A stretch of 26,069 nucleotides of DNA from Phoronis ovalis (lineage: Eukaryota; Phoronida; Phoronidae): assembly GCA_028565635.1 (NCBI GenBank), contig JAOXYB010053056.1, positions 1 through 26,069 on the forward strand, written 5' to 3'. Made by a program: the position numbers and the translations under genes. Under the pieces are notes generated by a model. It saw only the letters and a program-made list of their open reading frames with translations, searched no databases and was not told the origin of the DNA. Below are positions 430-22,466 of this stretch, in pieces (positions within the stretch are counted from its first letter, which is position 1; every line of letters begins with the position of its first letter).

Positions 430-589
430 TACATCGCTGTGAATACTGAACAGCCTATCTTGTAGACATTCTATTGCCATCCATTTCACTGGTAGTAGGA
501 TATGTTTGTCTTGTTTGTAGAAGTTGTTGGTATAGACATCTCTGGCTAAACCAAAGTCTGCTATCTTCACCACCAGCTGCTCATTGATC
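430..589 (-). CDS. Exon 13: DFG motif, activation loop and P+1 loop
   Basis: The exon encodes [13 protein letters not shown], then NNFYKQ and [11 protein letters not shown], ending HSDV at a gtaagc donor in phase 0. DFG is at 547-549. The activation loop tyrosines Tyr555 and Tyr560 fit the YxxxYY-like positions of Met/TAM kinases. PVKWMAIE is the tyrosine-specific P+1 loop. The next exon should start with the WSFG segment, and none is visible in 1-429, so it lies beyond the left edge. Reading through the donor gives about 25 codons and then a stop, which I take as intron. Confidence 0.93.
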
Positions 590-3500
590 CTGTATAGTAT
601 TATCAAATAATATTTAATATTTACACAATTTATTTCCAGTTTAATCACACTTTTTGGGCAAATTCTATAAATAAATGGTTATTTTGTGGGAGGTATAGAC
701 ATCATTTAAATCAGGTGTCATATTTTATATTTTGTTTAAGTTAAGGTGATGAATATCGTTTTTTATGTAATAATTGAGTAGTATAAAAATATACCTCATT
801 TGAAAGCAAAATATTGGCTATCATAACGTAACACTGTTGAAATATAGTTATCCAATTTATTTGCCTATAACAAAAGAAGAAATGAAGCTATTTCTAATTC
901 TTTTAAATTTGGAGATAGAATAAACAACAAACTATAGTTTTATTTTCCTATTTTTATTGTAAATTTTCCTGGCAATCTGGATTTGATGCATAATGTTTAC
1001 AATAAAATATACTTGTATATAGCTTGCATGTACATATGAATGAGCAAAATAAATAAGTTAAACTTACATGCAGTTCCTTGTTGCCAAATCCCTGTGAACA
1101 AATTTCAAGCTTTCTAAATACTCCATACCTTTAGCAATTTGAAGGCCAAATCCCAATAGATCTAATGTACTCGGAACCTAAATTGACAATTTACTAATTG
1201 ATTTAATTTAATAAATGTTAAAACATGTTGTACACAGACCAACACAATCATAATAAACTTTTCTGTAAACATTAAGGACATCTGAGTTCATAAATCAGAT
1301 TTATCAGGAAATAATTCTGTTAAAAATGAAATTTAAATCTGAAAATAAATAACTTTCATGTTTACTTTTCTGTAGCTAAGTCCACAGTCAATTATCATAC
1401 GTAAAGGTAGGATGAATTCTTATATGTGTATTTCTATCTAAATATACTTTACTCTATTTATGACCTGGATAATCATGACAGCAGCTGGGTTGAGTATCTG
1501 TCATATTTTTTATTTCTTTTTGTAATCCGTGGGATTTGGAAAAGTGGTGGAATTAAAGGCTAAATTTAAAGCGAACAATAAACAAAATTTTAATTTACAT
1601 TTTTGAAAAAATTGAAACTAGTCAAGATTATTTCAGGAATTCATCTGTTAACTAACTTTAGAAAGATGTCCAGATTAAAAAATATATAAATACCGAATGT
1701 TGCAGTTTGTCCCTGTTGCAAACATAAGACCCCCATTTTGAAGCTGTTTTCTGCCATTGTCCAAAATACCGAATCTCCCACTCAAAAATTTGCCAATTTG
1801 GTATGTAAAAATGTACGTAAGGCAATCTAAATATATAGATATTGCTACCAAACTATAAAATTTACTGGAGAATATCTATGCACAACTTTGTATGTCTGTT
1901 AGACTTGGTTTTCTTCATCAGTTTAAAGATTGAAATGAATGATTATTACTTCTGCAGTTCATTTGGCTGCAATTCAACAATTAATTTTCATGGTAAAGTA
2001 CTGAATCTTGTCTTAAGACAACATATTTACTGAAACGAGACATTTTGCATTTTGTAACAAAAAAAAATTTCAGTATGAACATGACATATAATATTTGATT
2101 AAAAGATTTTTTTGATAACCCAATTTGCTAGACATATCATTTGTATTTCTAAGATATCAATCCTGTATCAAAGTTTTAATTGTTGCTATGGTAACAGAAT
2201 TTGAAAGTGAAAAGATTCCCCACACATTTGTTAGAATACTGACAACTAGCAGGGGCACCTGTATAACAGGCAAGTGATGGGGGATAACGGTAAAAATGTT
2301 GGATGGTTTGTGCATGCATAAGGAAAGGGTAAACTTTAAAAATAGTAATAATTGCAATATACAAAGCTATTTCAATGAAATATCTGCAGCAGTTCTCCCC
2401 TGTACACGACGTTCTGGTTCTGTTGTCCTCACTTGTCATATGTAATGACTACTAAGAAAACCTCGTCATGGTGTCGCCATGTGATCATTTCCCGTCTATT
2501 TTAATGCACACAGTACTATGCACCTGGGCATTACACCACACATAACCTGACATGATCTAAAATGCAATTTAAATCACTTTGATGTAAGATCAAGGGGTAT
2601 ATGCATTTATATGGTTTGTCCCGTCCCTCAAACATTGTCCCGTACATTTTTATATCCCGTCCTGCCTTGTAAACATCATATAAACATTGTCGCTTATATT
2701 TATCCTCTCCCATGTCGTGACATACATGTCTCGTGTCAATTTCGACGACATTTAAAAATCCGTTCACATATAATGAAAAGATAGATTACCATAGGTACAT
2801 GCAGGGTAACTTGTGAACATGAAATGACATAAATAATATGACAGGAAAAAATTTGCCTGTTCAGATACGACACCTTAAAAATAAGCAAAAGTGACATTTT
2901 TTAGTTCGTAACATTAGCAAATTTAGTCAGATTATTTTTTTTACAAACTAGTTACAAATTTATATTAAAGCACTATATTCTATGAAGATTTGTCCAAATT
3001 TCATTAAAAAATTATTTGCCATCTGAATTTTTTATGTGGGGCAAGTTTTACTTCCGGTTTTCCTAGCTGGGCACTAATGATGTCACATAGTGCCTGGTAG
3101 TGTGGCATCTGTGAATGTGTATTTTACCAATGAATATCATGACTGTAGTGTAAGACTTGTTTGTGGTATAACTATTATTCAAATGTAATAAAATGGGTTG
3201 TGCATAAGAAATTGTATTATTGTTTTGTTCAGAGAGCATATATAGTTAAATGTATTAACCTTTGACATTAACTCGTGATCATATCGAAATTTCCTTAGAT
3301 AGGATTGAAGGTCTCCATGTTTCATGAATGGCATTAGTATCATAGGAACACCTGTATCTCTGGTGATGCAGACACCACCGATAGACATAATGTGACCATG
3401 TTTAAACTCAGCCATTGTCACAGCTTCTTCAACAAACTGGATGATTTCGGCAAAACTGCAGCCATCTAGAAAATAGTTTTATTTCATTCTGACACAGACT

Positions 3501-6500
3501 CAGTATTTGGGAAATAGGGAAATTATAATTGCAAGCTTCCCATGTAAGGTGAAAAATGCTTTGAGCAGCATTGATACTATATGAAATAGTTTATTTTTTA
3601 ATGAAGCAGTATTTATTCTACTGACTTCCAAAATGCTCCATTAACATGAAAATATACGTGAGGTCATATTTTGATATACTTGAGAGAGGCTGAAAGATCG
3701 TAAATATATCTATATTAAAAAAAATATCCAATTTTTTGTGATTTTTATGCTGCAAAAAAAACTGATAATAAATTAGCTGTCTGCTTAACCCTAAAATCCT
3801 AGATTTCATCCTACTTTGTGTAGGTATACTAAGACAAAAGAAATTTGTTCTTATTGCTAAAATAATATGACGGAAAAATTGTTATAAATAAGAACTTTTA
3901 CTTGGTAAACATATATCTGGGGTACAGTATAAAATATTAATTGTCTAAACTAATTAGGCCTATATTTACATATTACATACCTTTCAGTGTTTTAACTGCT
4001 AATACCCTAGATTTTGTAGGTAGGGTCCATTCGCTATATTCACCACGGAAAACATTACCAAATGCTCCTACAACAGCTCATTATATTTAGTTATCAAGTG
4101 AAACCATTGCTCTTTGTATCTTCTAAAAGATGCCTTTCTAGAATCTTTCACCACAACTATGCACATTACCAACATTGTCACGTCAGGCACGTACTGATTT
4201 GTTAAATTATCCTGTTCACGTATTTCGTATTATTTAAAAAACTGGAGGAATTTCATGGATACCACCAATGTTGGTGCTACATTTAGATTCACAGTGACAT
4301 GTTCAAATTTTCCTTTTGCCGTTTTCTCTGACTTAGGCTATTAGGTAAAATTAGATAGTTAGTAGATAGGAGTTCTGCACCTTTGTATATATTATTTTGT
4401 CAATTAATGAAAATTTTTGGAAGTCTCCTTAAAATGTTCTTGGAGAGATGACTGTCAATGAAAGCAGTACAGAGGGATCCACAGGAAAGGATCGTTTTCT
4501 TGGCCTGAGGTATACTTTTAGTTATTTTTCTTTTAAGCTTTACTGACAGTCAGTGTTTTTGTCTGTTGTTGTATACTGATGCTTGGCTTTTTCCTTAAAT
4601 TCACTTCACAGAAAATAGTGCACAACATCTCATACAACCAATTTTAGAGCTAGGCAAGAAGACAGAAATTTGGCCAATGGTATACTGACCGACAAGTTTT
4701 TAGCCATTGATATACTTGCTGACAAGATTTTTAGCCATTGATATATTCACCATTAGCGTTTTTGACCTGAAAATTTGGTGTATTGCCTGAAAGAGTCTGA
4801 AGGCTCCACCTGATTCCCTGTTGGTAGTCTAGAATCTCTGAACATTCATTTATTGTGACGTATATGTTCCCATCCAATATAGCTACCATAGTATAATTCA
4901 AAAATACTGAAGAATTTTTTTTTTTTTAAATGATAATATCGTCATGGATTGCACATTTAAGCTTATTGCACACAAAATAACAAAACAAATTACCTTGTCC
5001 TATCTTCTCTCTCAATTCTACCATATTGACATCAATAAGCAGGGGACATAACTTGGTCTGTAAATCTTCACATAGCAAGCTGCGTAAAACACAGCCAATT
5101 TGCGGTTTTCCTATGTTAACAAACAGTAAAAGCATTAAATATTCTTGAATGCAAAATATATTTATATATCAAATTTGAATCTTAATTGCTTTGCATTGTA
5201 TTGAATTATCTTGAAGTGAACCTATTCGATTAGCAGTACTTAGATTATTGATGGCATAATATTGAGATAAAGTTCTAATTCCTGTAGTCCGCATGTGCAT
5301 CTTAATCTTAAACTGTTATAGAAAGGTGTTCGACTTCTAACATCACATGCATGTTCATGACTCACCATTACATTCTCCAGTCTGTATTTCTTCATTACAG
5401 TAAATACGCCCTTTATTTGTAAAGCAATTATCACGTAATTTTTCCACATCGTCTTCAGACTGTGAAGCTTGTAAACGTCGACAACAAAATACCATAACAG
5501 AAAAAATTATGGCAAAAACAAGCACTGAAACCACACTTGCTACAACTGGTGTTTTAATATCTGTAAACAAAGAAAGTTGTCAGTGAGCTACTTCATAACA
5601 AAAATTCTTTGTTTTTTTAGAAAACCTGAAGTTTACGTTGCTCTTCATTCACTGCAAACAATTTTTCATTATGACTGTATATGCAGAATGTATATGTTAT
5701 TTGTACTTCATTACTGAATGTATTGTAGGAAATAAGAAACTTTCAAAGAGACAGTAATGTTTTAGGAGACTGATTGAATGAAGAAACTATAATTTCATTA
5801 TTTTTTTATCATGATTGATGAAGTTTATCTAATGCAAAACTACTCTAAGTTTAGTCACACATAACATATCTGATAAAAATGTAGTGCTATGTAATATTAA
5901 TTTAATTATACTCGCCATATGTCTCTGGTTCAACTGTTGATGACCTCGTCAGTTTAATACCAGAATCATGAGTTGCAACTGAAAAATTCATGTTTTTTTA
6001 ATTCGGACACCTAATATTTTACATTAAATATAAAGGTATAAGGTATAATTTTGTAGTCTTGTGTCACCACTGAGCTTTTACCATGCACGACTTTCACATA
6101 ATTTGTCTATTTACAAGAATTAAGTGACTTATAAAACTGTTTAATAACTCACTTATGCAATTGTGTTTACAATTAGTCACTGCTATTTTATATTCCCTGG
6201 GAGAGATGTTGACTTGCACCACTAGGGCATTGATTTCAAAGGATGATAAATTAAATCTGGCATTTAAATGTTAATAACGATAATAAAAGAAAATATATGA
6301 CATTTTGGAAAAATGTGACAAATCTGAAATAATTTGTCATTTTGTAAGTAAAAGCAATATTTTATAACTTGTATCATCATACACCAGAAAGGATTAATCC
6401 CTTGAATGAGAAATTACATAAACAGATGATCTTTTACTTCCTATGCTATATAAGTCCCTTATTTATTTTATTAGTTTGTATCTTTTTACAATACTTTTAT

Positions 6501-9500
6501 TATGGCATCCTACAACAAAGATCTTGCCATACAGTTGTTGCATCAGTTTTTTTTTTCTGTTTTTTTAGCAAATTTTGTCCATAGCTTTTCTCAGAAAGAT
6601 TTAAATGAAATTTTGTGATTCAAAATGTTCATATGAACATGAAAGGAAAAACATTTATTAAGAAGGTTTAATTTAAAATTACAGCCATGTCAAAAACATA
6701 TTCTTTGATAACTGGGAAAATACTGCACTGATTTCAACAAAACTTGGATTAAAATGTTTGCAGGGTTCTTATGATGAAAATATGTAGTGTAAATTTTGGC
6801 GGCCAAATTGAATCTGACATGGCTGCCATGTCAAAAACTTTGTTGGAAGCCATATACTGTTGCTGTGCAACATTACCCATATACGTGATTGAAACAATTT
6901 GCACCTTTTTAAACTATAAATAAGAAAGTTTTATGTTTTACTGGTAGTTTAGTAGCAATAATTTTGATTTTAAATTTCTGCAAAGTGATTGTAGTACAAA
7001 AATATTACTGTAATCAAGTAAAGTACATTATGTAATTTGTCCAAAGGACGTTGAGTACTATCATCATTGCATTCAGATGATTTTTATTCTGACAGTAATA
7101 GTTGTTATTAAAACAATTTTCACCTTTACAACTGTTTATGCTGTGTGTTTTTAATAAAGTTGTAGTATTAATTATTATATAATACACCATGACACAATAT
7201 CATGTGGATATTTTTGATTAAATGAATATTAGAAAATACGATTCACAAGTTCAATAAAATTGAAAATTTGAACTAATCAGAATTTATTTCAAAGAAGTTT
7301 AGAATCATAAAGTACCAACTAAGAAATTTAAGATGCTTTTATGAGGATGCTCTGAATTTGAAACAAAACAAATAAGATTTCCGTTGGTGATATAATATAA
7401 AGAAATGCTTACTTTCATTTTTATGCATTTTTAAAGCTGCATATATAAGTTTGTATTATAACGTTAATCCTATTTGAGTTCAAATACCAATATTATATAA
7501 AAATCATTGCTACTAAAACCATATGCAATTTGTTGAAAGCATGCAGTTTTTATCCCTTACAGCTCTGAATGCATTGCATATGACATAAGGAGATGGACAT
7601 GATGTGCAAATAAGAAGGCAGAACTTACAAAAATAGAACATCTTCAAATAATCATTTTTTTCGTGAATTTTAATTTATATTTAAATGTATTATTAATTTA
7701 TTTATTTCATAATGTCTCAAATAGATTTTACATATAATTTAAGGTGTTCTAAATGATGTACTCGGATTCAGAGGATTCTTAGTGATGATAAATAGAGCTA
7801 TATACAATATTTTTTGGAAAGTAATTAAACAACTTTTGAAAAATTAACATTTAAATCAACATTTGGCTAAAGGGATTTTTTTTCTAAATCAGTGAAATTA
7901 ATTACAAATCAGAAATACACTAAGAAAGCAAAGCACTTTGGTTGAAAGTGATGTCCCATTTGATTGATAACTCAAATATACTAAAGAAAAAATAGCACAT
8001 AAACCAATTCCAACAACATTGTATCGCAATGGTAAACTCATTTTTAGGTTAACAAATGAAGACTTACCATTATCTTGACGGTGTCCATATGGCATATAGT
8101 AACAGAAATGCATAGTAACTGTACGAGAATTTATATCTACTAGTAAATCCGGATACAAACCCATCTTTGTAATGTCATCTGGGTTCAGGGACCATATCAG
8201 AACCTCTAACCTATTTGTCATACCTGTCGACTAAACAAGAAGATGCAATGTATGAACAAAACAGTAGCAGCATTGTTCAAGAATCCACAGTATAAATTGC
8301 AGATTTTTGTACCAAACAAGTACGATCATCAATATAGGCAACAAACCTGCTGTTACACTTGCAGGGTGACATGAAAAAAAAACACAGAATACCAGGTACT
8401 CTGCAAACATTATTAGTACAATTGGAACTCGGTATGTTTAATATATTTTTTAAAATTATTTTTATTTGTAATTATACAGAAATGTCTAAAATGCTGCGTA
8501 TACGACAAAAATACTAAACGCTGAACCTTTGTTTAGTGAAAGCTGGGAGAAGTCAGTTATTATCAAAATTCATTAGAACTGTGCAAGGTAAAAAAAAGAA
8601 GCAAAGCATATTTTTCTTACGTCTGGACACTGGTTGTTATCTAAAGGAAGAAGGTAAAAAGCTTCGGTGGTAGATATCTTCAACTGATCCTTGGGAGCTC
8701 TCTCATTTTTGCAGCAATAGTCGAACGTCGTGAGGTAGTCATTTGTTTGAGCTGGACCATTGCTCATTGGCATCAGAGGTACCGGCAAACTTATGTTACC
8801 TAAAACAAGTATTCGTATCTTCCTAACTTTTTATATATACGTGTAACTACCCAAAATTTAAATTCGAAGTACAATTAACGTGTCGATAATTCGTCTTACG
8901 GCTATCCTCCTTAAACCTAATTACAAGGTATAATCATCTCTGGTTCCGCCGACAACTAACATACATGTTTGCAACATTTACTTTTGGACACCCTTTTAAA
9001 TGGTCAACAGCCCACACTTACCATACGTAAATCCCCCTGGGCATGTATTGTTCATCTGAAATATACAGTATTTTCCTGGTGGCCACACTGTTCCCAAACC
9101 AAGATGTTGTCTTGGTCGAGTACAGAAGAACAATACCAATTCACTGCCAAACATGTCGTAATTTGATAACGGAAAGACTCCTCGCTGTTGCCCAAAGTCT
9201 TTTGGATTTAGAATATATTTATCTGAGAACTTCAATACAGTCGAGTCCCAGCCCTCTGTAAAAAAGTTTGAAGATTATTTATGTATTTTCATTGAAATAA
9301 TCGGAGAAAGCTAAAAATTAAAAAGATCCTGTAATTTACGTCGTTAGGGTGCTTCTCAACCGCGCGCTATCACTGATATTGTGGACATAATTCAGTAGAG
9401 GGGAGAAAAGGCTCTAGAAATTGAATTTCGTTTCACCTCTGATATTCATTGTATTAACTGCTCGCATAAACTAGATAAACATTTACAACTCTAATAAAAA

Positions 9501-12500
9501 ATATAGTAAGTTTATACAGCTTGTGATAAATTGAAGGTACATTTAACCCATTTTACTCAAAGCTCGCGCATTAATGGTTAAATTTTATCAATAAATATGA
9601 ATGTGTATCAAAACTAATAACGCGCTTTGTTTATATCGACTACTACATTCAACCCTCGTGTCTATATACTTTCGTGAATAGTTTTACGCGGTAAACCTAA
9701 CTAAACGCAGCAACGACCTTGTCATTTTCGAGTACCTGCTAACAGTAAAACTGAAGAATTTGTTAATTTGTATCTAGAATGTTAACACATGATCCATATA
9801 TTTGGCAGCTTTAAAATTGGCGTTAATCCTGACGTGCAAAAAGTATATAATTTGTTTACATATTATACAAGTTCGTGTAGGTTCATTTAGATGTCATCAA
9901 AATCATACAGTTCATACAATTTCCTCTAACACTTGATTTGTTGCCTTTGTTTTTTTGTTGTTGTTATTTTCTGATTCCGAATTCATGCTGTGATTATGTT
10001 CCAGTTTGGGATGGTGGGATAAAAATGCTAAAAATGCTTTGTTGAAAGAAAAGTACTAGAGTCTAGTCGGTGTTATAGACTATACACGAAAATGTATGAA
10101 TGTTTTATAAATATTTTTTAAATGGCTAAAACAGGTACAATAAAACACACCTGGTGAGCATAATTGCTTAGAAATCAAGTTTTATCACAGTGTAGTAGCA
10201 TTTCAAAAATGACAATTTCAGCAATCTCTTTCTTGAGCCGTTTTTGTAAACTAGTGATAAGGACTGAATTCTGAAAGGATAACAATTTTTGAATGAAATA
10301 AAGCATTGCAAAATAATTAGTTTGTCCAGTACGCAGATATTTGTCAAATTTGGAATTTCGAGCAGTGATGTGCTATAATATGGCATGATGCAGCAACATA
10401 GTGTTAAACAGCTAGAGAGTCGCATGTCCGTAATAAGTCAACTGGTCAAAACTTCAATAAACGGAAACTATTGGAGTCGATCAAAGGTCTTGACGACAGG
10501 AACAAGTATCAGTAATTTTTTGTGATGTAGTAAATTCACCAAAAAAAAATCTATTTTGACCCATTAAAGCAATATTAATAAAAAAAATCAGAGTTGTTTA
10601 ACTGTTTGTGCATAATATATATTGAATTAAAGACTATATGCTATAACACGACCACATTAAAAAAATTAACCAGTTGATAATGCAAACTTCTTTCCATTAG
10701 CTTTTTAAGAAAACAAAAGTTAAAGTTACCAAATAAACAGTATATTTTCTAAAAGTTTACGGTATGTCCTTTCCATAGATGTATGTATAACAAGCCATGA
10801 TTGAGCCCAAAATTTGTTATGTTTAAAGTTTTTCAAAAATCCTTGCAATTGCATTGTGTATAAAACGCAAGAGTCTACCTTAACTCTTACGTTGTCACCT
10901 GACTATTTGGTGAGGTGGATGTCAAGCTGAGTTCAATACATAACGTCAGTACAACAGGTTGCTCCATGAATGAACACCACCAAACTCTTGGATCTCATTT
11001 TGTTTAAATATAAACAGATTTTGTTACTAAAGTATATCAAGCTGATCTCATATGTCACCAAGAAATCAGAAAATTATATGTTATTTTAACGTTTTAATGG
11101 AAAAAAATATTGAAAATTTTTTTATCCGCGTGAGAGACAAAATTTTATATTTTATATATTTTTATTTTAATGTGAATTACGTTGAAACAAGAAATTTGTA
11201 AAAAAAATGGCACGTTAAAAAAATTGAACCCCGTTAGGTATTATATAACTCATGTTGGTAAAAATCAGCATTTTTCCCACAAAAATGTTCAGTAAATAAC
11301 ATAAAAGGATGACACGTGAGAGTGAGAAACACTTTTTAAATTTCTTTACCTGGTGTTGGACACGTATGTGATTCAGGCTGTAATAATGCATATGGCCCGT
11401 CTGGAAATGGATCATTTGCACCGTTATGTCTCCTTCCACCAATAGATTTTGTGGCTGTTGGAGCGCTTACCATAACATCAAATTGAGTTGTGTTATTCAT
11501 GTTGCCACCTGCTCTGTGCTCAGCTGAAAACAAATAGTAGTTGTGGTCTACCACGTTTTATTTCTATAATCTTGAAAAATATATTTTCTCAATTTAACAA
11601 ATACTTTTTCTCTTTTGCTTGAACTCAAAATATGGGAAATAACCTGAAACTTATCAATCTTATCAATCAAAAATAGCTAGAACACATTTTGTTCGATCAC
11701 CTATATGAGATGCTGATTTACTGTTGAGTGTATTACTTCCAATCTATCCTTGGTTACCTCTGCCTGTACATACCTGATCCTTGAGCCTGTGCTATCATTG
11801 CCGATATTGCCGACATTATGACTGAAAAAGTATTCTTGCTCAACCTGTAGTCAAGAAATAAATGTCAAAAAAAATTGTGAAATACACTAAAAAAAGAATA
11901 TCTAGACTTTATTATACACGCATGCCTAGACTTAATCTTAGGGTAAATGGTGCATGCAGCTCGATGACAAACGCATTAATAACTATTAACCATATGGTAG
12001 CATGAAATAACTATTCTAAAGTTATATTGTGTGAATATATATATCGTTAAAGCTTTATTTAGCAGTTTGTGTCCGTGGGTTTAGTTTCCTCCGTGGTTGC
12101 CACTTATTGATATTTTTGCATAATCGTGTGGGATAGTCTCAATAAAGTTTATTGTGCACTTTTTCTATTTAAAATGAGGCAATGGGATGCCATTAGATTA
12201 ATCATTTGCTCTGTTGCTGATAGTCTCAAAGAATCAAATTTGACCAACTTACTTATGTTTTGTGCTTTTATTTAGCTACGGCTCTCCTATTTATCAAATG
12301 TATGTACACGTACATGTCACCTTATTGAACTGGAAATGCATTTCGGAAACGTGCACTTAATGATGTTATAACATGCTATATCTATATTTTAAAAATTTTA
12401 TCTCGACTAGTAAATTTCGAATAATGACGTATACTAATTTCGGATTACATAAATTACATATATTATGTATATAAACACTCCGATAAACGCAATCTATACA

Positions 12501-12593
12501 ATTTCCTTCTGGGTTGAATCATGTATGAGGATAGTTTACATATTAATGTTCACCCTAACATCAGCTGATATATTCTAATACTTACCATTCCAT
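430..12593 (-). CDS. ApeC-domain receptor tyrosine kinase with TAM-like kinase (13 exons, 3' end outside window)
   Basis: Thirteen exons, read right to left, join in frame with matching phases: 12593-12586, 11844-11774, 11523-11350, 9255-9022, 8799-8621, 8230-8068, 5978-5916, 5560-5366, 5110-4994, 4067-3981, 3465-3260, 1177-1068 and 589-430. They total 1767 nt, or 589 residues. Domains in order are a signal peptide (1 to about 25), an ApeC domain (about 66-270), a short stalk (to about 302), a transmembrane helix (303-324), a juxtamembrane segment (325-396) and a tyrosine kinase (from about 397). Seen in the sequence: GQGAFG loop, Lys427, Glu444, HRDLATRN with Asp529, DFG at 547-549, PVKWMAIE at 569-576. 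From family knowledge, ApeC domains of some amphioxus proteins bind peptidoglycan and TAM kinases sit at the cell surface. The inference is a surface receptor that signals by tyrosine phosphorylation after binding a microbial or self ligand. The remaining kinase C-lobe lies left of the window. I am confident of the architecture; the ligand is unknown. Confidence 0.9.
590..3259. other. Introns 12 and 11 of the receptor kinase (590-1067 and 1178-3259)
   Basis: AT-rich non-coding sequence interrupted only by exon 12. The larger intron has an isolated minus-strand open frame at 2767-2531 with no splice partner in the kinase (see findings). No other exon or RNA gene seen. Confidence 0.6.
1068..1177 (-). 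CDS. Exon 12: kinase catalytic loop
   Basis: The exon starts phase 0 with [20 protein letters not shown] and ends in HRDLATRNC, the receptor-tyrosine-kinase form of the catalytic loop. Asp529 is the catalytic base and Asn534 the metal ligand. It ends AT|gtaagt, and the Met536 codon is completed in exon 13. Confidence 0.95.
3260..3465 (-). CDS. Exon 11: kinase helix C to hinge and helix D
   Basis: The exon encodes [20 protein letters not shown] and on through [20 protein letters not shown] to ELMSK. Glu444 in EEAVTM is the helix C glutamate that pairs with Lys427. PFMKHGDL in the hinge region is shared with Axl, Mer and Met kinases. The usual HPNV and LIGV motifs are altered here ([11 protein letters not shown]), a small departure that does not touch catalytic residues. 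Confidence 0.92.
3981..4067 (-). CDS. Exon 10: kinase N-lobe, glycine loop to catalytic lysine
   Basis: This 87-base exon begins after a gtag acceptor and ends at gtatgt. It encodes [10 protein letters not shown] and then RVLAVKTLK, where Lys427 is the ATP-contacting lysine of the VAVK motif. Phase 1 at both ends. The loop Phe and all needed glycines are intact. Confidence 0.92.
4672..4763. repeat. Short tandem repeat, about three units of 31 bp
   Basis: Three diverged units each carry a core close to AGCCATTGATATA followed by a segment ending in GACAAG-type sequence and a T-run. The first unit reads gccaatggtatac, the next two agccattgatata. It lies inside intron 9 of the receptor kinase and has no visible function. 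Confidence 0.6.
4994..5110 (-). CDS. Exon 9: TAM-like juxtamembrane helix and start of the kinase glycine loop
   Basis: The exon encodes residues 364-401 and reads into the kinase as VELREKIGQ, with the loop glycine codon split across the intron. The segment [20 protein letters not shown] aligns by eye with the stretch of Axl and Tyro3 just before the kinase (pattern L-x2-E/D-L-x3-L-x3-L/M-x-D), which I take as a family-level resemblance to TAM receptors. It joins exon 10 to give [11 protein letters not shown]. Confidence 0.85.
5366..5560 (-). CDS. Exon 8: transmembrane helix and proximal juxtamembrane segment
   Basis: The exon lies between a ttacag acceptor and a gtgagt donor. Residues 303-322 ([20 protein letters not shown]) form one uninterrupted hydrophobic span, followed by the stop-transfer sequence CCRR. 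The two Cys at the membrane face could be palmitoylated. The cytoplasmic part is acidic (QSEDDVEKL) and contains IYCNEE, a Y-x-N pattern (Tyr351, Asn353) of the type bound by the Grb2 SH2 domain when phosphorylated. Confidence 0.88.
5916..5978 (-). CDS. Exon 7: extracellular stalk of the ApeC receptor kinase
   Basis: This 63-base exon follows a tttttcag acceptor and encodes [19 protein letters not shown] plus split codons at both ends. It is a hydrophilic, Ser/Thr-containing stalk between the ApeC domain and the membrane. The donor is GC rather than GT (ATATG|GCGAGT). The nearest GT (two codons on) would give phase 2 and create an immediate TAA with exon 8, while the GC site gives the phase 1 needed by both neighbours. 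Confidence 0.65.
5979..8067. other. Intron 6 of the receptor kinase
   Basis: About 2.1 kb of AT-rich non-coding sequence between the last ApeC exon and the stalk exon. It holds a degenerate repeat remnant around 6680-6840. No exon seen on either strand. Confidence 0.6.
6684..6838. repeat. Degenerate interspersed repeat remnant with a small palindrome
   Basis: The 14-mer GCCATGTCAAAAAC occurs at 6684-6697 and again at 6825-6838. The second copy overlaps the palindrome TGACATGGCTGCCATGTCA (6815-6833, only the centre unpaired). The text between includes ttcaacaaaacttgga and ggcggccaaa, which from memory resemble a repeat widespread in mollusc genomes; this was not searched. Confidence 0.4.
8068..11523 (-). 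CDS. Exons 3-6: complete ApeC domain (ectodomain of the receptor)
   Basis: Exons 11523-11350, 9255-9022, 8799-8621 and 8230-8068 encode residues 27-276. The order of landmarks matches the ApeC family: FPDGPYALL followed by CP (66-82), a GWDS segment, LVLFFC, then [16 protein letters not shown], an ISLPVPLMP segment, FDYCC, EAFYLLP, QCPDV, and finally VTMHFCYY. The eight Cys that recur in this family are present, including the paired Cys of YCC. Exon 3 has overlapping N-glycosylation sequons (NNT, NTT) in a spacer before the domain. There is one ApeC copy and no MACPF domain, unlike classical apextrins. The ApeC block starts and ends at phase-1 introns. I recalled the family consensus and did not search it. 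Confidence 0.88.
8231..8620. other. Intron 5 of the receptor kinase
   Basis: 390 bases between two ApeC exons, phase 0, with gtaaga donor and gtttag acceptor. Nothing else seen. Confidence 0.7.
9256..11349. other. Intron 3 of the receptor kinase
   Basis: About 2.1 kb inside the ApeC domain coding region, phase 1, gtaaag donor and ttacag acceptor. The minus-strand open frame at 10425-10168 has no coding signature or splice context. No transposon signature seen. Confidence 0.6.
11774..12593 (-). CDS. Exons 1-2: start codon and signal peptide of the ApeC receptor kinase
   Basis: Exon 1 contributes only 8 coding bases (12593-12586, ATG GAA TG) before a strong gtaagt donor. Exon 2 (11844-11774) follows a ctacag acceptor and ends at gtatgt. 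Spliced, they begin [20 protein letters not shown] and continue AQAQGS, an uncharged hydrophobic stretch ending in small residues. This is a normal eukaryotic signal peptide, probably cut near the AQA or GSA residues. The start was chosen because it is the ATG directly before the donor, and because it restores the reading frame and completes a leader that exon 2 alone lacks. A second in-frame ATG in exon 2 (residue 13) could give a much shorter leader. Confidence 0.75.
11845..12585. other. Intron 1 of the receptor kinase
   Basis: 741 bases splitting the signal-peptide codons, gtaagt donor and ctacag acceptor. AT-rich, nothing else recognised. Confidence 0.65.
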
Positions 12594-12732
12594 ATCCAAA
12601 AAAGTTTTTCCACAGATAATGCTTCTTTCTAGTAATTGCGTCTAGATTTTAACGAAATGCGCAAGTTTCACAACTACTATATCTTCAAATTATATTGTTT
12701 GTTGCTGTTATTATAGGTGTAACAGATCTAGC

Positions 12733-12750
12733 GTAATTACTAGTAATTAC
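12733..12750. promoter_or_regulatory. 18-bp perfect palindrome upstream of the receptor kinase (candidate homeodomain site)
   Basis: GTAATTACTAGTAATTAC is its own reverse complement and contains two copies of GTAATTAC, a homeodomain core (TAATTA). It lies about 140 bases upstream of the ATG at 12593, where the 5' UTR or core promoter would be. A regulatory role is an inference. Confidence 0.35.
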
Positions 12751-15075
12751 AATCGATCCATGGTGATTACGGTAAAACACAAAGTAAAAAGATAGATTAG
12801 GCTACTATAAAAATTACTCTAAGAAGCGTTAAGGCCAAACAAAATATCAATGTTTATTGTGAAATGTCCTACAACATATATTTTGGCTGTAGATGCAAAT
12901 TTCTACATTGTATGTATGTATGTACGTATAATTGTATATTCGTTTATTATAGTGACAATTAAGTAATGTACAAACAATTTTTAAACAAATTTACAATTAA
13001 TCAGTATATACATTGATTTACCCAGCCCGGGACTATATCGTGAACAAGTAAAATGGCCTTTTTTCGGCGAATCAGATGAGCGTGTGACAGGTGGAAAAGG
13101 CAGGTGATAAAAGTTTGGAAGTAAACAATGATAAACAAGCACGCTTTTGTAAATTCCTAAAGGATGGTGACAAGTCACTTAGCTAACATTTCGTATTACA
13201 GTTTGAATAAAAGCGTCGCCCAGTATTTGTTCAAGTAGTATTTTAAAATCACGTGGGCCAGGTGTATTTGTTTTCTTCATCATTAGCCTGATTAGCTGTT
13301 TAAATTGTAAACGTATCGGTCCGACGCACTCTAAAGGTGTCTAACTTTATGTTGACGTATAGCAATATAATAACTCTCGTTGATCCCGGCGCATCAGTAG
13401 CTATTATCTATTAGCTGGGACTAATATAACTAAGTTATATTAGCCCCGGCTATTAGATGTTAAGAAACCCCGGAAGTATTTACATGTATAATGACTACGG
13501 GGGGGGGGGCTGCCGCCCCAGAACGAGTCATTTTGTCACTGATAAATCCCTTAAAATGGATCTTTATTTACGATTCCATTTAAAGGTAACATTTCCAGGG
13601 ATTTTTTAAAGAGAAAACCAAATGGGTCCTTTTTATGACAGAAGACCATAAAAATGGAATGGGTATTTTGAGATAGGGCTGCACTGTCTGCACATCCCTG
13701 TCTAAAAATATAGTCAACCCCGGATAACAAACACTTTCTAAGCCTACTTTAACATAGGTTGAAGATATTTTACGGTTACTGTAGTGTTTTCAAAAGAAAA
13801 CAAATTTAAAAAGCAATACGGAAAATACAGTGGAGCATAGTTCACCGCCTGGACGATAAATGCCTCGGCTTGTATGCTTGATATTTATACAATATATATA
13901 ATCGCTCTATCTCTAGCTTATGATATTGCTTTTATACGCAATTCTGGCTGAGTATATTTGAGCTACATTTTTGAATACAATTGATTATCGATGTGTATAA
14001 GAACCCATTTTGTGAATTGAGATCCTTTACTCAGAAGCACACAATGAGGATAATTTTTTATGGCTTTATGTAGCACACCAACATATTTTTTTTACATGTT
14101 TTATGCTTAGATAAAACATTTGGTAATGTAGCTTGGAAGGCCATCTCTGCTCCCCACTCACCAGCAAGCTGAATTTTTTTTAATTCACCAGCCAGGTAAA
14201 AATGCGGGGGAACTCAATCTGCCAGCTGAAATTTGCAAAAAAATGTATTGTTTCATTCGGTTTCGCGCCTGGATGAGTCACTTAGTGGTGTTAATGTTGA
14301 GAATCAGATCTGTTCTCCATTACCAGCTGGATGGACTGTTTAAGGTTTGCCAGCCAGACAGACTCGTCTGGGGAACATATATTATGGGGAACAGAGTCGG
14401 TGGGTGCTTCCGTTTACTATAACTGTTTTCAAAAATAGATTATTCAGGTGCCAATTATGCCGGTGGCTATTATGTAAGAAGAACGCTGTAAAAGGCAGAG
14501 GTCAAGCTTTTTTAACCGTTAACATTGTTTTGCACTGAAAACATTGTAATGGTAAACAAAAGAATTGGTTGCCATTATATGTGATAATTTTGAGAAACTA
14601 ATTAATAAAGTATTTTGACATTCATTGGTTACAATTTGTGGTGCTTTAATATAATCCGTCTGTCACTCAACTGCAATCCTTCATAACTGCTGTACACAGA
14701 TATGTTTGATCTTATATACGTTTCAAATTTATGGATGCAGTATTTTTTTTAGTTTAGAGTGTCTACTTTGTTGGTAATCAACCATAACATGTCACAAGAA
14801 GGAATGCGCGATAGCTGTGGCTAAATTTGTAAGCACAAAAGTAGTCCGTCAAACGAGAATTCTGTATTTTTGGATACGTCCTGAAGATAGTAAATCTACA
14901 GATGAGTAATAACATCTGCAGTACAACACATCCTTCGTAAATTACCTTTTCATATAGGATTTATCCTATGGTTATAACCATTCTATTTAAAACGTGATTT
15001 TCCTTTTACTACGCACTTTAATTGTACTTTTACACTGCTCTGATAACAACTGTTTTTGATAAAATTATAAAAAAC
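12751..15075. other. Intergenic region between the receptor kinase and gene 2
   Basis: About 2.3 kb with no exon I can support on either strand. It contains a short TATG microsatellite (12911-12930), a 41-bp imperfect palindrome (13412-13452), a G-run near 13500 and otherwise AT-rich sequence. The promoter of the receptor kinase should lie at its left end and the end of gene 2 at its right end. Confidence 0.6.
13412..13452. repeat. Dispersed 41-bp imperfect palindrome, copy 1
   Basis: Two 20-base arms around a central A pair with two mismatches; the left arm is TAGCTGGGACTAATATAACT. A 22-base part (13413-13434) recurs exactly on the other strand at 24094-24115. It is probably a fragment of a dispersed hairpin-type repeat. 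Confidence 0.55.
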
Positions 15076-15303: not shown

Positions 15304-15946
15304 TTAACAGGTTTTTGCAGACTTTCGCATGTTTCCAACATCATCATCGTCTTCATCACGAGAGCGTTTCACTCCTCTTTCCATAGAAATATCAATGTTT
15401 CGCATTTCGGATGTAGATGAGCTGAAATCTCTACCAGGTCTCTCTGTTTTACATTTATCATCTTTTGTCACTGTTACAACGGTACATGTTACTACAACAT
15501 TTCCAGTTTCTGAGTTATTATCTGATTCCAGTGGTAATGTTGCAGCAGTAGGCAATTGAGTAGATTTTCTTTTTTTCAATTGATGTGCACGCGTTTTACT
15601 TTCCTTTGGAGAAAATGACATTGAGGCAACTTCATCCAATGTTTTTTGAATTTTTCTGCTGGATTCGTCATCACTATTTTTCGAGATACTTGATCTTTTT
15701 AAGCGCCTGTTTGCTGTAGTTTTGTCTGTGATTTGTTTCCCATTTGTTGATTTCTTTGGGGCTTCTCCCTCTCTGCTTCTTGGTACAACTGCTAGCAAAG
15801 AAGGGGAGACGTTAGAGGGCATTTTATCATAGGCTTCAGAATCTTGCCGAGCTTGTTTAAATGCTATTGGTGATTCACTGACAGTGTGGTGAGACCGCTT
15901 AGTGGCTTTACTATACCTGCTCTCTTCTCTTCTGTGACGTCTTGAT
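15304..15946 (-). CDS. Exon 11 of gene 2: terminal exon
   Basis: The exon follows a tttcag acceptor and encodes the last 213 residues, beginning SRRHRREESRYSK (after an Arg codon split across the junction) and ending MRKSAKTC then TAA. Basic clusters (RRHRR, LKKRKST) could act as nuclear localisation signals. An acidic run (RDEDDDDVG) lies near the end. Open frames on the plus strand here are antisense shadows. Confidence 0.87.
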
Positions 15947-18900
15947 CTGAAAGTACACTAAATTATATATAACTGATGATTTCAAATATTATAACATACT
16001 TTTTTTTATTGTCTGTGTTTCTGATCCCGAAGATGAAATTTAATAAATTCATAAAAATATGATAAAATATACATGTAGCACAGTGATATTTGGATAGTGA
16101 ATAGCAATATACAGCATATGTTATCACCTTTTAATTTCCAGAATCAAACGGTCCTTTTCGGCCGTTGTTGGGGACTCTTTCTTTGTTTCCTTCTCTTTGT
16201 AGTCAACCTGGTCAATAGTGTCGAGCACATGAACGTTATTTCTTAGAATCGATAGGTCATCGGGCCCGATATCGTATAGCGGGATCTGTGAATATAAGCA
16301 AATTCAAACTGTTTTTGTGTCAGTTTAGTACCTTAGATCAAAGAAGAAGACGGGTTTCTAGGAAATTTGTGTGGAACTTACTTCTTATTCTGAAATAGTA
16401 TTACTTAAAGCATCTTTTATATATGAAAACAAGTCTGTCCAATTCAAAGGGTACACATTTAATACAGGCAATAAACTATCTTTACCATCGCATCTTCTCT
16501 TTCTTCTATAGGCAATTCCAAATTAGGTGTCTGCAATTGAGCTCCTTTAACAGTCCAGTAACCGGTGAGACCATCCAGTCTGCGTTCAGGATAAAACATT
16601 GTAGTTTCTACATCAGAAGTGGTGTTACTCTTATTGTTGGGGGTATTGTAATCATAGAATTTTTCTGCTACATTGGATTCTAGAAGTTTAATGTTTTCTC
16701 TGGGATTTTTCTCTAGTGTTAGTTCACCGTGACTAATCGATGTCGGATTTGGTCTATTTGGAACATGCACCGTGTGGTAACAGGTATCACATTTACATGG
16801 ATGTGTACTAAGATTTGGCGAAGATACGGGCATTGGTAAGTACGCCTGTCTACTTGCGACATCTGCTAGTAAGTCTAGTCCAGATCTGAAGGTTCCACAT
16901 TCGTTTGGCTGATTTTTGATAAGTTTACTATCTGCAGCATCATTGCCGCGTCTGGACAAGTCTAAGGGCTCTGGCATTGACCTATAGTTAAATTCGTCTG
17001 TTGAATCGCTATCACCAGTAGAAACGCTTGGAATGTTGCAGTAGGGATACGAGTGTTGGTATAACTCATAGTTTCTTTGGTAAATGTCCTGGCTTTTTGG
17101 CACTGAAAGAGGGCTACCATTTGAACTGCTGCTAATCCATATACTGTCTTGCGATTTGTTAATTCTCACGTGGTTTTCTTGGTTATGTGTGGTATCAACG
17201 ATATAGCAGCTACTGTCCATTGATTCTTGGCTACTATTTCGTTTAGAAATTTCGCTCGGATTATCAGGTACGGCCATTGTGCTTTTATCAACAGGCTTAC
17301 CGTATTTGCCATAATTAGCTGCCCTTATTAACATTCCGTACATAAGTTTGTCATTTTTATTATAATTTTGACAGTTTTCACCCTGTCCATCATTTGTGAT
17401 ACGGTCCACAAGTGACTTCAACCTCTTCAATAATGCTTCATCATCATTTGATATCGCTTTCTGGAGCACGTTATCATCATCTGAAGTACACTGACCATCA
17501 CCGCGAGATTGAGTTTCATCGGCAATGCCCTAAAAGTATTATAATAACACATCGGTCATAGACAGATTATAATTTATTATTTTTATTGATTGTAAAGTAT
17601 ATTAAAGGATACTGCTTGTAATCTCGATGTTGATATTAAATGTAGTATACACAATTAATATCTTCTACACATTATGCGAATTGTTTACAAGCATGTGTAT
17701 ACATGTGTATATAGTCTATATACCACTTATACAACAGTTAAGGTATACAACTCAAAATGTTATAAGCAATCAAAATATCGTAATTACGTTAATATCATCG
17801 TTTTTTTAAAATTTTAAGTCGCGAAACGTACGCTGGAAAGTAATTCATCGTACCCCAATTTTTCTAAGTCCTTGCTGAAGACTTGTCTTTTGAGCCTGTT
17901 TGCCAAGTCTTTGTTTTAGAGTGTGTGTCAAAAATTGTATGTCATCCGATTCAGGAGGAGGACCAACACCTCGGTCAAAAAACACCTTTCTGATGGTCTA
18001 AAAAAGTTTTTGAAATAATAACAACTTATGTTTATACAGCTGAGAACCACGGTGAACAGAATCAGATTTGGTTGTCTTTGCCATTAAAATAAGAATCCTT
18101 GTTCGTTGGAATAAATCCATCCGTTAGTGTTCCGTACCATCTCAACTAACGACTGGGCTTAACCAAAGTCAATTTTGTTATATTCCTACAATTTAACAAG
18201 AGCGAAATAATTACGTCATTAATCTTTTGTCAACCTAGATAAGCCTTTCTCTGTACATGATCAATCGTCGCCTACCACGTCTATTCTATCATTATGACTC
18301 ATTCTGAATAGGTATCGCCGGGGAGCTTGCTATTTGCTTAGCTGACTATAGATAAACTCTGGCAGCACAGCATGTGTGTGATCGACTACCTACCCGCTTA
18401 GTCCACAGTTATACCTATTATTGTAAGCTGCAATTTGATTGGTGTCAAGACTTTCGTGACACTTTATATAAACATAAAGGGATTATCGTTCTTCTGCTTA
18501 TCGAGATAATAAACAAACATGGTCTATGGTTAAGCCCAGACGTTAGTTGAGATGGTACGGAACACTAACGGATGGATTTATTCAGACTGGTTCATTGCTA
18601 ACCATCATTCTCTTGATCCAGCCTTAGAGAAACATAGATCAATTTATACTTCAAAAGTAAATTTTTATACTGTATTTCTGTCTATTAGAAATCAGCCTTG
18701 ATTTACTGTACAAGTTATAATTACGTTTTACGATTTACAACATACATATATTATACTAATAAAGGAATCAACTACAATTTTCGAACTTAAATTTATACCT
18801 TTAGATTCTCTCTTCTGTCTATTTCATGGAAAACATTGTCCATCACATAGTCTAGACTGTCATATATTTCTTCGTACATATCACATCGTTCATTTTCAGA

Positions 18901-21900
18901 CAAATTCAACCTCTTAGATTGAGTACGCTTATCTGAGCCCATATCAACGAATTTCATTCTAATAATACACAAAACGTAGAAAAAAATCAATGTTAAATGA
19001 CACTATTAGTAGATTTGAATTCAAAATAAAGATATTAATATTTTTTAGCATATTGTGCATTATCTGACTCCCAAACTGACTAAATTCAAAATACATTGGA
19101 CTAACATGACGTAAAATGCACAATTCATACGCGTCCAGGGTTATACTAAAAGAAATATTTAGAACTGTTATTAACGCCAACAGTACCAAAAAAACTTAAA
19201 TCTCTTGATACCTGTTTTCTTGCTTTACAGGCCATTCTTCCGCGTGATCCTGTTCATTCCATAAATGTCTTTGTTTGGGCTTCTTTCTCAAGTAAAAGGG
19301 GTCAGCTGTGCCAAACATGCCACTTATATTTTTAGCTGAACTTGAGGGAAGAGGATCAATCTGAAGTAAAATATAACCGTAGATATTTATTTACACCAGT
19401 ACCTGCTCAGATTTGTTGTCTAATTTCAGTTGTCTCATTACCAAAGTGTATAACCCACCAGTATATGGTGTTAGGCATCATTGGGCAAGATTGCCGTGAT
19501 TGCCATTCATGTCGGTAGACTTAATAGTTAATTTTGTTCATTATATTCAATTTTAATTTACGACTTACGTCTAAAGCCGATGTTCCCTGGGGGACTAGAG
19601 GCGTTTCTGACTTGGGTAGCCATTTTGCCGGACATTCAACTTTAGCTGGTCTGCGTTGCTGGGATTCTGGTCTGCGACAGATTGGTAGCGATTTGGGGTC
19701 AATCATGTTCCCTAATTTGTGACTGTCTGGAATTCCCATCCTCTGTAAAGCAGATCGAGCTAATTAGCAATCCAAAGACAATATAAAAATATGTATAACA
19801 CTGTTTTATTTGTATTGCATTCTCCCTTTATTAGCAATTTAAAAATTCTATTATAATCGTATTTCATTTTCAAAACAATGGCTTACCTTTTTCTCTTCCC
19901 GTGTAATACCCAAAGAATTCATAAATCTCACTTTTTCATTCTCGCTGCATACATGTGTATCGAATTGGATGCTAGAGTTACCCAGCTTATTTTTTGGCGA
20001 TTTTACTTGCTCGGTGGACTCTCTTGCGTTCTTTAATTCCTTTACATTAACGCTATTTAAACTCTTACTTCGTTTGACTTTTTTAATTTTTGATTTCATT
20101 CCTTTGGCAACATCCATAGTTTGCGCCATATTATTTCTAATTTTCTTCTTCCTGTTGCTGCTGTCGCTGCTATTACTAGACGAAGGCAAACAGGTTGGAA
20201 GCAGTGATATATTGTTGACGGGAAGAGCTGTTGGCTGCGTCGTGCTGGTATTGGTAGAAGTGCTACCGTGAGGAGTGGTTGGTATAATAATTCGTTTTGG
20301 CAATGTTATCTTAGGCAAAATCTTAGGGTATCTGTCAGACATATTGCTTTTTGCTTGGCTTGCGATATTGTTACTAATGGCAGAGGTGAATGTGGCCTTT
20401 GTCGGTTTTGAAATACCCTTTTCTTTTTGCGTGCTCATCAGACGAAATACTATTTGTTGAACTTTGCCACCAGCAGGTTGTATCATAGAAGAAACCGCCT
20501 GTACTTGAGTTAGCTCTTTTGCTAAATTTGTTTGGAAACCAACAGTATTTCCTTTGTTAGTTTCTTTAGGTTTTGGCGCCGGCTTCTTCTCGCTTGGTTT
20601 CCTAATATAAGGCTTATACCTTTTTACAACCTTTGGTTTCTTAAAAACTTCAGCGTCGGTTTCTTCGCGTTTTATGCCGGCTAAGACTCTGTAATCCAGT
20701 CTTGCAGCTCGGCTATTTCTAACTGATCGGAATTTAAAATTATCTTCTTTCTTTGCTTCTAGCTTTTCAATTGCTTGCAAATTTTTTTGAGCAATAATTA
20801 ATTCTTTTATTTCAGCAGATTTTTCCAATGTCTGTTCAGCCACTGTTGTCTGCTTAGACGTAACTGCTGTATTGGCAGAATTGACTTGAGCTTCTTGTGA
20901 AATACCTTTTTCCAAGGAGACAAGTTTTATTTCTTGCTGGTGTGAGTTGCTTTTTTCTTCTGACTTTTTTTCATTCAATTGATTAATGTCTGCCTCCTTA
21001 TCTTCTTTGAGCAGTGATGATATATTTGTACCTGTAAGAATAACCTCGCTAACGGAGTGAAAAGCTTGACCTTTAATTTCTTTGAGCAGCGATGAACAAT
21101 CTCTTTCTTTGATAACTGCTTCGTTTACATGAGGGGATTCTATATCTTTAACTTCTTGGAGATTTACAGAAATAGTGCTCTCTTCAATTTCACTATTCTG
21201 ACTATCTTCACAAACTATAAATTCTTCTAACACTGTAACAGTGTATCTCTCAATAGACTGTTCCTCAATACAAGTATTATTATGGCCTAAGTATTCAGAT
21301 AGCTTAGCTTTGACTAAGGAATCTCTCACAACTGGTTGGGTTTCGCTTGACGAATTTGAGATTGATAATGCATCTTGTATGTTGCTTAATCCTGATTCCA
21401 AATGCTCTTCATGAGTTTCATTAGAATCAGTCTTCACAATCGACGTTATACGTTCTTCTACGTTTTTCGAGTTGTCAGCAACAGCCTTAAACGTTGATGA
21501 ATCACTACTTCCAACAGGGGATTTTGACGCAGTCTCACTTTTGTTGTCCAAGCTGTAAATAAGGAAACCAAACTTAGTTGCCACTTTTCTTCAATCTTGT
21601 ATTTATTATAAGCAAGTTCAAGCTTGTGGTATTATGGTTCACATAGAATATGATTAGAAATAATCACTATTAATGTTTGGTTTGTTTAAATATTTTACCC
21701 TTCTAACTTGTATTTCTTAATTCTCCCAGAATGTAAGAGAACAGCTAAAATTAGACAAAGCATAAGATTGTTAAGAAAATCTGTTTTGTTAGTATAAAAT
21801 AACATGTTATGCACTTACACTTTGTCCAAAAGATGCTTTGGAATATATTTACTACACAAATTGTAGGCAGCGGGACTTTGCTTCACTATTTGTATACTCT

Positions 21901-22466
21901 GAGAAATTTCCTGAAATTTAATTAAAGAGCAAACGCAGTTTAAAAATCCATTCCGTTTGTTTATTTTTGAGCTGGTTGTCATGCAGAAGTGAAACCGAGG
22001 TTAATCACAAAATGTAAAAAAAAATACCAAACTGCTTTGTTTCTACTACTCTTGTCAATAAGATAAAATTCTACTTTTATAAAGTTTATAGAACTAATAT
22101 TTATAAATACAAATGTTTGTAAAATGTTCATTCAGACAATCTTTTTAACATAACAGCTTTACCTTCTGCAGAACAGATTTCTCAGATTGTTGATTATCAG
22201 TAAAAGACTTCTTTTTTCGACCTATTCAACAAACAATAAACACTTATGTACATCAAAACAAACACGAAACAAAAAACAAACGTGTAACACGTAACTTTCA
22301 ACGAAACTATCAAAACTTTCAAAGCGTTTGGACAATTGCGTGTTTGGTATGCGCAGAAAAATGGAAAACACTTTTTCGCGCATTCTTTCCATCGGGTAAC
22401 ATTGTGAGATTTTAAACTTTTTACAGACTAAGAAGATGTCATATACTTCTTACCTTTACAAGGCAT
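15304..22466 (-). CDS. Uncharacterised large protein, 11 exons, about 1433 residues
   Basis: Exons, read right to left: 22466-22454, 22221-22163, 21910-21819, 21552-19887, 19742-19569, 19360-19212, 18958-18799, 17997-17854, 17529-16486, 16285-16128 and 15946-15304. All junctions are GT-AG, phases match, and the total of 4302 nt is a multiple of three ending in TAA. I do not recognise the family. The protein is mostly Ser-, Lys- and Glu-rich low-complexity sequence without signal peptide or membrane helix. Visible motifs are a Lys-rich start (MPCKGRKKKSF), the block AAYNLCSKYIPKHLLDK (about residues 43-59), KVRF at 595-598 and RKVFF at 774-778 (PP1-docking-like), PLDLS at 1007-1011 (CtBP-binding type), a Cys/His cluster at 1062-1074, and basic plus acidic clusters near the C-terminus. 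A nuclear or centrosomal regulator is possible, but nothing proves it. The gene structure is well supported except exon 8. Confidence 0.8.
16486..17529 (-). CDS. Exon 9 of gene 2: exon with PLDLS and Cys/His motifs
   Basis: This 1044-base exon is phase 0 at both ends and encodes residues 820-1167. It contains MPEPLDLSRR, a textbook CtBP corepressor-binding motif (PxDLS, coding bases 16968-16954). It also contains HPCKCDTCYHTVH (16803-16765), a compact cluster of three Cys and three His that could bind one metal ion. The rest is Ser/Asn-rich. The exon ends REDAM|gtaaag and joins IPLYDIGPDDL in exon 10. Confidence 0.85.
17854..17997 (-). CDS. Exon 8 of gene 2, donor uncertain
   Basis: The exon starts after ttttttag in phase 0 with TIRKVFFDRGVGPPPESDD. 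With donor GGG|gtacga (end 17854) it is 144 bases and fully in frame. The frame hits TGA just beyond that donor. A second donor, AGC|gtacgt at 17832, would fit only if the reading frame shifted by one base near 17898 (see findings). Confidence 0.6.
17998..18798. other. Intron 7 of gene 2
   Basis: 801 bases, mostly filled by the inverted-repeat element at 18109-18583. Removing the element leaves an intron of about 325 bases, similar to the gene's other introns (roughly 140-325 bases). Confidence 0.7.
18109..18583. mobile_element. MITE-like non-autonomous DNA transposon, 475 bp
   Basis: The 57-base ends 18109-18165 and 18527-18583 are inverted repeats of each other with one mismatch (18152 against 18540); the ends start GAATAAATCCATCCG. 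Similarity weakens but continues a little further inward. The interior has no open frame. This fits a miniature inverted-repeat element that needs a transposase from elsewhere. I see no clear target-site duplication, so the exact termini and the superfamily are undecided. The near-identity of the arms suggests recent insertion or arm-to-arm gene conversion. Confidence 0.75.
19887..21552 (-). CDS. Exon 4 of gene 2: large low-complexity exon
   Basis: This 1666-base exon encodes residues 55-610, from a ttacag acceptor to a gtaagc donor. The first half is Ser/Glu-rich. The middle holds the better-ordered block SRAARLDYRVLAGIKREE, followed by a basic Lys/Pro run (FKKPKVVKRYKPYIRKP, then EKKPAPKPKE). 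Near the end is EKVRFMNSLGI, whose KVRF fits the protein phosphatase 1 docking pattern. No enzyme domain is visible. Confidence 0.85.

Follow-up and report, generated by a model that had tools for sequence, protein, structure and literature searches.

A Candidate ApeC Receptor Tyrosine Kinase and Sister Genes That Carry the Same Kinase Cassette behind Other Outer Domains

The Gene and Its Surroundings

The window, that is, the whole stretch of DNA that was analysed, is 26069 bases long and makes up the entire contig C3173, with window position 1 as the contig end. A gene of 13 exons lies on its minus strand and runs from 12593 to 430. When the exons were re-spliced by script, removal of the 12 introns left 1767 coding bases and 589 residues in a continuous frame free of stop codons, which bears out the claim of the initial annotation that 13 exons join with matching phases. 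The introns are GT-AG in 11 of 12 cases, with a GC-AG intron following exon 7. The exact hexamer GTAAGT, found nine times on the minus strand of all 26069 bases, forms the donor of four introns. The exons are as follows.

12586..12593, minus strand: exon 1, start codon, residues 1-3; proposed from an in-frame ATG and a GTAAGT donor, without homology support
11774..11844, minus strand: exon 2, weak signal peptide, residues 3-27; proposed from a hydrophobic core, splice sites, and phase, without homology support
11350..11523, minus strand: exon 3, N-terminal ectodomain and ApeC, residues 27-85; splice sites and frame
9022..9255, minus strand: exon 4, ApeC, residues 85-163; PF16977 match in the genome search and in the spliced protein
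8621..8799, minus strand: exon 5, ApeC, residues 163-222; the piece alone matches PF16977 at E 7.1e-6 and 26.4 bits (cut-off 26.5)
8068..8230, minus strand: exon 6, end of ApeC, residues 223-277; profile end (208/208) at residue 267, phase-1 GTAAGT donor
5916..5978, minus strand: exon 7, stalk with a GC donor, residues 277-298; proposed without homology support
5366..5560, minus strand: exon 8, transmembrane helix and juxtamembrane segment, residues 298-363; 19-residue hydropathy of 2.9, phase-1 start shared with an exon of four sister genes
4994..5110, minus strand: exon 9, juxtamembrane segment to the start of the glycine loop, residues 363-402; similar sister exon, aligns with the segment preceding the MER/AXL kinase core
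3981..4067, minus strand: exon 10, glycine loop and catalytic Lys (AVK, 425-427), residues 402-431; kinase profile and motifs
3260..3465, minus strand: exon 11, helix C and hinge, residues 431-499; kinase profile, genome search, and sister exons
1068..1177, minus strand: exon 12, HRDLATRN catalytic loop, residues 500-536; kinase profile, motifs, and sister exons
430..589, minus strand: exon 13, DFG (547-549), Y555, Y560, and KWMAIE, up to HSDV, residues 536-589; kinase profile, motifs, and sister exons; runs off the contig

Because the contig ends there, the kinase is visible only as far as HSDV (residue 589), inside the C-lobe, and kinase profile positions 188-258 and the tail fall outside the window. 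The reading-frame piece of exon 3 gave no Pfam match when searched alone. Exon 7 can be skipped without loss of frame, as direct joining of exon 6 to exon 8 also keeps it. Read on past its donor (window 8067-7898, minus strand), exon 6 gives about 56 residues with a hydrophobic stretch and then a stop, and a short ApeC isoform, secreted or membrane-anchored, is conceivable.

A neighbouring gene lies upstream on the minus strand (15307-22460), with open reading frames at 19854-21590, 16462-17529, and 15307-15957. None of its pieces matched Pfam, and none of the three open reading frames matched NCBIfam. What seems to be an intron of this neighbour contains an inverted repeat (18109-18583) whose two 76-base arms are 89% complementary and lie 323 bases apart; it resembles a small non-autonomous DNA transposon.

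Domains of the Encoded Protein

The spliced gene model encodes, in order, a weak signal peptide, an ApeC domain, one transmembrane helix, and a tyrosine kinase. An HMM search of the spliced protein had been set beforehand as the test of the ApeC assignment, and Pfam placed the domain (PF16977) at residues 128-267, with profile positions 60-208 of 208, an E-value of 9.7e-19, and 68.5 bits vs. a cut-off of 26.5. The domain had been called a full one. Its profile does run to the end, and the ectodomain (residues 26-297) holds eight cysteines and no more, but the first 59 profile positions lie outside the best stretch. When the ectodomain was searched alone, the match reached 1.5e-19 in two stretches. 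A pattern scan showed D.ED and DE.D motifs to be absent from the ectodomain.

The other parts named by the initial annotation fared in different ways. The single transmembrane helix is supported by hydropathy at residues 301-322. A hydrophobic core is present for the signal peptide at residues 9-20, but at 12 residues it is modest, and the two exons that encode this end of the protein are those proposed from splice signals and frame. The tyrosine kinase occupies residues 394-589 (profile positions 2-187 of 258, E 3e-57 in Pfam). It had been described as catalytically intact, and its glycine loop, Lys, HRD, and DFG are all found, together with activation-loop tyrosines 555 and 560, but this applies to the part up to residue 589, with the C-lobe past HSDV off the contig. 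The predicted protein combines an ectodomain, a single membrane-spanning helix, and a tyrosine kinase within one chain and so has the architecture of a receptor tyrosine kinase.

A search for further outer domains covered 88 minus-strand reading-frame pieces: 61 came from the region between 4 and 15.3 kb (minimum length 38 residues) and 27 from the region above it (minimum length 50 residues). No extra ectodomain domain appeared among them in Pfam; the matches were to ApeC (two pieces) and, weakly, to a transmembrane segment (one piece). Ig/FN3, Sema/PSI/IPT, and venus fly trap domains were found neither in the spliced protein nor in the 88 pieces. A second ApeC gene was likewise sought in 77.4 Mb of the genome, and the single match was the window gene, in a search that was insensitive because just one of that gene's own ApeC exons was detected. 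A solved ApeC structure was sought by sequence, with no match among 177635 distinct sequences up to E 10, and none of 11 pattern matches in prokaryote genome contigs was confirmed as an ApeC relative.

Sister Genes with the Same Cassette

The genome search set comprised 4805 contigs (77.4 Mb), probably part of the genome, and the contigs inspected were all longer than 10 kb. The kinase-family profile gave at least 161 exon-level matches in this set, and the spliced protein gave 72, a count that takes in the exons of the window itself. The same genome has at least four sister genes with this transmembrane-kinase cassette. Their kinases, on contigs C858, C2578, C3653, and C4631, are 65%, 68%, 71%, and 64% identical to the window kinase, respectively, and the exon ends are alike across all of them. 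By eye, the transmembrane exon starts in phase 1, with AT right after the acceptor, in five of five genes including that of the window. The exons before it end in phase 1 as well, again by eye, in ApeC exon 6 and, for C858 and C2578, in the final F5/8 exons.

The outer domains differ among these genes. In C858, a WxxW domain (E 1e-9) lies upstream of the transmembrane exon, along with F5/8 type C exons, the best of which reaches 4.4e-24, with three more pieces above the cut-off and others below it. C2578 carries two kringles (E 3e-21 and 1.4e-17), F5/8 exons (1.1e-23, 1.7e-9, and 9.5e-7), and a PAN match below threshold (7e-4). The transmembrane exon of C4631 is preceded, at a distance of about 8-9 kb, by a sushi domain (6.5e-5) and a NedA-like/F5-8 exon (6.4e-9), which are candidate parts of the gene. 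The contig of C3653 stops soon past the transmembrane exon, so the ectodomain region is outside it. No convincing tblastn match to ApeC was found in the stretches of the sister genes that were covered. The earlier description of a receptor without adhesive modules thus holds for the ApeC-kinase gene, but it does not extend to C858 and C2578, with their F5/8, WxxW, kringle, and sub-threshold PAN matches.

Phase-1 introns are the classic class for exon shuffling. The phase-1 junction and the differing outer modules on the same cassette therefore point to exon shuffling onto a constant transmembrane-kinase cassette, and the sequences suggest a receptor family made by exchanging the sensor above the same kinase. 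The occurrence of this cassette with different outer domains in sister genes is new in this analysis and goes beyond the earlier observation.

Other sequences in the set deserve mention. On C2208, the region 11800-13146 seems to hold the 3' end of a gene from the five-gene family: it has a WAYG exon, and its tail bears the motifs EDIYMLP and SNYEVPD. The matching 5' end would be on another contig, possibly the window or C2578; when C2208 was compared with the first 700 bases of each, shared stretches did not exceed 12 bases. A kinase fragment of the same family on C2487, near 8104-8310, is split over two frames and is probably a decayed copy. C1114 (10091-11431) holds mitochondrial cox1, in the order nad3-nad2-cox1-cox2 on one strand, with the genes named by eye. 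Such an order presumably indicates a lophotrochozoan resembling a mollusc, brachiopod, or phoronid.

Kinship of the Kinase

Against solved structures, the window kinase scored 167.5 bits with MET and 163.4 with MER, and a higher EGFR row adds up two kinase copies. The N-lobe and juxtamembrane segment taken by themselves are nearer MER (72.1) than MET (59.0). A profile built from the five sisters, the window kinase among them, gave 262.5 bits for AXL, 262.4 for MER, 256.7 for MET, and 251.7 for IGF1R.

A maximum-likelihood tree of 17 rows included 5 of the 25 other kinase-bearing contigs among the loci retrieved by the two genome searches; the remaining 20 were partial, redundant, or from other kinase groups, and human DDR and ROR were absent too. 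In this tree, the five sisters form a clade (99/99), which is joined (82/84) with a set made up of AXL, MER, MET, and the genome's own Met-type kinases (80/78). The latter, on C4731, C1392, and C3566, cluster with human MET (96/95). A run with one residue in error gave an open three-way fork between the five, the TAM and Met set, and a set that contains a kinase named by eye as ROS-like. The position of the five beside TAM and Met is therefore weakly held, and the reading adopted is that they are a separate branch there. The initial annotation had likened the kinase to the TAM group, which is only roughly right. The top profile scores of AXL and MER and the N-lobe agree with it, but the five fall in a clade of their own that is placed, with weak support, outside the TAM and Met set.

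The Met-type genes of the same genome were also looked at for their outer domains. TIG (IPT) is above the cut-off in C4731 (7.7e-8), with two further sub-threshold matches, is seen once below threshold in C1392 (0.014), and is absent from the three pieces of C3566 that were searched. The idea that all three contigs carry IPT was rejected on this piece-by-piece search, which found it above the cut-off in C4731 only; C1392 and C3566 are Met-type by kinase alone. By eye, the kinase intron positions in these Met-type genes look identical to those of the ApeC-kinase gene.

Interpretation and Alternatives

The reading that best fits the locus, with a probability of roughly 60%, is that one gene encodes a single-pass receptor kinase with ApeC as its sole recognised outer domain, that the kinase belongs to a clade with modules shuffled in phase 1, and that ApeC senses a surface by clustering. 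The ApeC-transmembrane-kinase architecture is supported by the predicted gene and also by the sisters, whose transmembrane exon appears in the same phase behind other ectodomain exons. If the gene is expressed and its product crosses the membrane as predicted, ApeC would bind a surface of repeating structure, probably a cell-wall polymer or a glycan. Receptors clustered there would then have their kinases close together, Y555 and Y560 would be trans-phosphorylated, and the cell would respond. The output might be immune defence, symbiosis, or settlement.

Bacterial cell wall sensors in animals signal mostly by adaptor, NF-kB, or protease routes. If true, a domain of the peptidoglycan-binding type on a tyrosine kinase would be a direct route from microbe to phosphotyrosine, and it is plausible, by analogy with other ApeC proteins, that the ApeC receptor couples microbe recognition to kinase signalling in this way. 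The sister genes, with one cassette and exchanged sensors, would offer a clean case in which receptor invention through exon shuffling can be dated and followed. A broader idea is that the family as a whole consists of pattern-recognition receptor tyrosine kinases, in which a constant cassette carries phase-1-shuffled sensors (ApeC, F5/8, WxxW, kringle, PAN-like, and perhaps sushi and NedA-like) that read microbial or altered surfaces by phosphorylation. This broader idea is tentative, and the odds lean against it.

What the ApeC domain binds is the point at which the main rival to microbial sensing arises. Among the sources on ApeC proteins and receptor kinases (PMC9585378, PMC8361754, PMC12373286, PMC4284660, PMC4883820, PMC4026697), those on ApeC describe, in the available text, peptidoglycan binding and bacterial agglutination by amphioxus and mollusc ApeC proteins, name eight conserved cysteines and DXED (DEXD) motifs for ApeC in the ACP papers, and report that all three DXED motifs are altered in amphioxus ACP5. 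The motifs are missing from the present ectodomain, and caution is therefore due on peptidoglycan as the ligand. Alternatively, a true ApeC receptor kinase could read a non-microbial ligand, with ApeC serving as a module of adhesion or of the matrix and with a role in development, in mucus, or at contacts between tissues, much like the apextrin of sea urchin larval ectoderm. Apextrin is described, in the text available, as an apical extracellular matrix protein of embryos, and the discoidin, kringle, and PAN-like modules of the sisters are common in adhesion. On the other hand, the amphioxus and mollusc ApeC proteins that were tested do bind peptidoglycan, although as secreted short forms and not as membrane receptors. 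An adhesive or developmental ligand is thus possible, but it is the less favoured choice.

The gene could also be a TAM or Met receptor in which ApeC took the place of the usual ectodomain. Such an origin would account for the AXL, MER, and MET scores of the five-sister profile, for an N-lobe and juxtamembrane segment nearer MER, for the MET and MER scores of the window kinase alone, and for intron positions like those of the Met-type genes. It is nonetheless unlikely, as the five kinases form a clade next to the TAM and Met set and not within it, the Met-type contigs go with human MET apart from the five, and IGF1R nearly equals MET in the profile search. Still harder to credit is that two adjacent genes or an assembly misjoin make a secreted ApeC gene and a receptor kinase gene merely look fused. 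The predicted link between ApeC and kinase does span 2.5 kb of a fragmented assembly by way of one 63-base exon with a GC donor. Read-through past the exon 6 donor is open and eight copies of AATAAA lie between exons 6 and 8, so intronic polyadenylation could yield a short form, also as an isoform of the long one. Against a misjoin, a perfect GTAAGT closes exon 6 ten residues past the domain end and in a phase that fits the transmembrane exon, C858 and C2578 have the same transmembrane exon behind F5/8 exons in the same phase, and the region from the neighbouring gene to the transmembrane exon gave no other ectodomain candidate among pieces of at least 38 residues. The single-gene ApeC receptor kinase is therefore retained as the preferred reading.

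Comparison with Known Systems

Known ApeC proteins, such as the apextrins, amphioxus ACP1/2/3/5, and the mollusc proteins CgACP1 and BgACP1, likewise have PF16977, eight cysteines, and a signal peptide ahead of the domain. The eight cysteines counted here agree with the conserved number in the available text of the ACP papers, by count alone. That text describes secreted, MACPF-linked, or multi-module extracellular proteins and mentions no kinase, whereas the present protein would be a membrane kinase and has no DXED motif. A fusion of ApeC or apextrin with a tyrosine kinase is not named among the literature matches listed, as judged by title and the start of the abstract; the main survey of ApeC architectures, reportedly that of Li et al. 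2021 (Mol Phylogenet Evol 155:107009), is beyond that scope.

Among receptor kinases, the TAM group (AXL, MER, and TYRO3) has in common with the window gene its kinase and juxtamembrane similarity and AIE(S/C) after the P+1 loop. TAM ectodomains carry Ig and FN3 domains, however, and neither was found in the ApeC-kinase protein, whose kinase falls in the five-sister clade. Met and Ron have a similar kinase, and the genome's Met-type genes have intron positions in common with the window gene (by eye), but no Sema, PSI, or IPT domain was found in the ApeC-kinase protein, and its kinase falls in a separate clade. Discoidin is part of the DDR architecture and kringle of that of ROR. Such modules occur in the sister genes, while the ApeC-kinase gene is without both.

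Shuffling of extracellular domains over receptor tyrosine kinases has been described in general for the IRKL subgroup, as far as the available text goes (PMC8662651). The nearest precedent is the Venus kinase receptors (VKR), invertebrate receptor tyrosine kinases in which, according to the portions of the sources at hand, a foreign sensor sits on a standard kinase. In VKR, a venus fly trap sensor is joined to an insulin-receptor-type kinase, whereas the only sensor domain found in the ApeC-kinase protein is ApeC.
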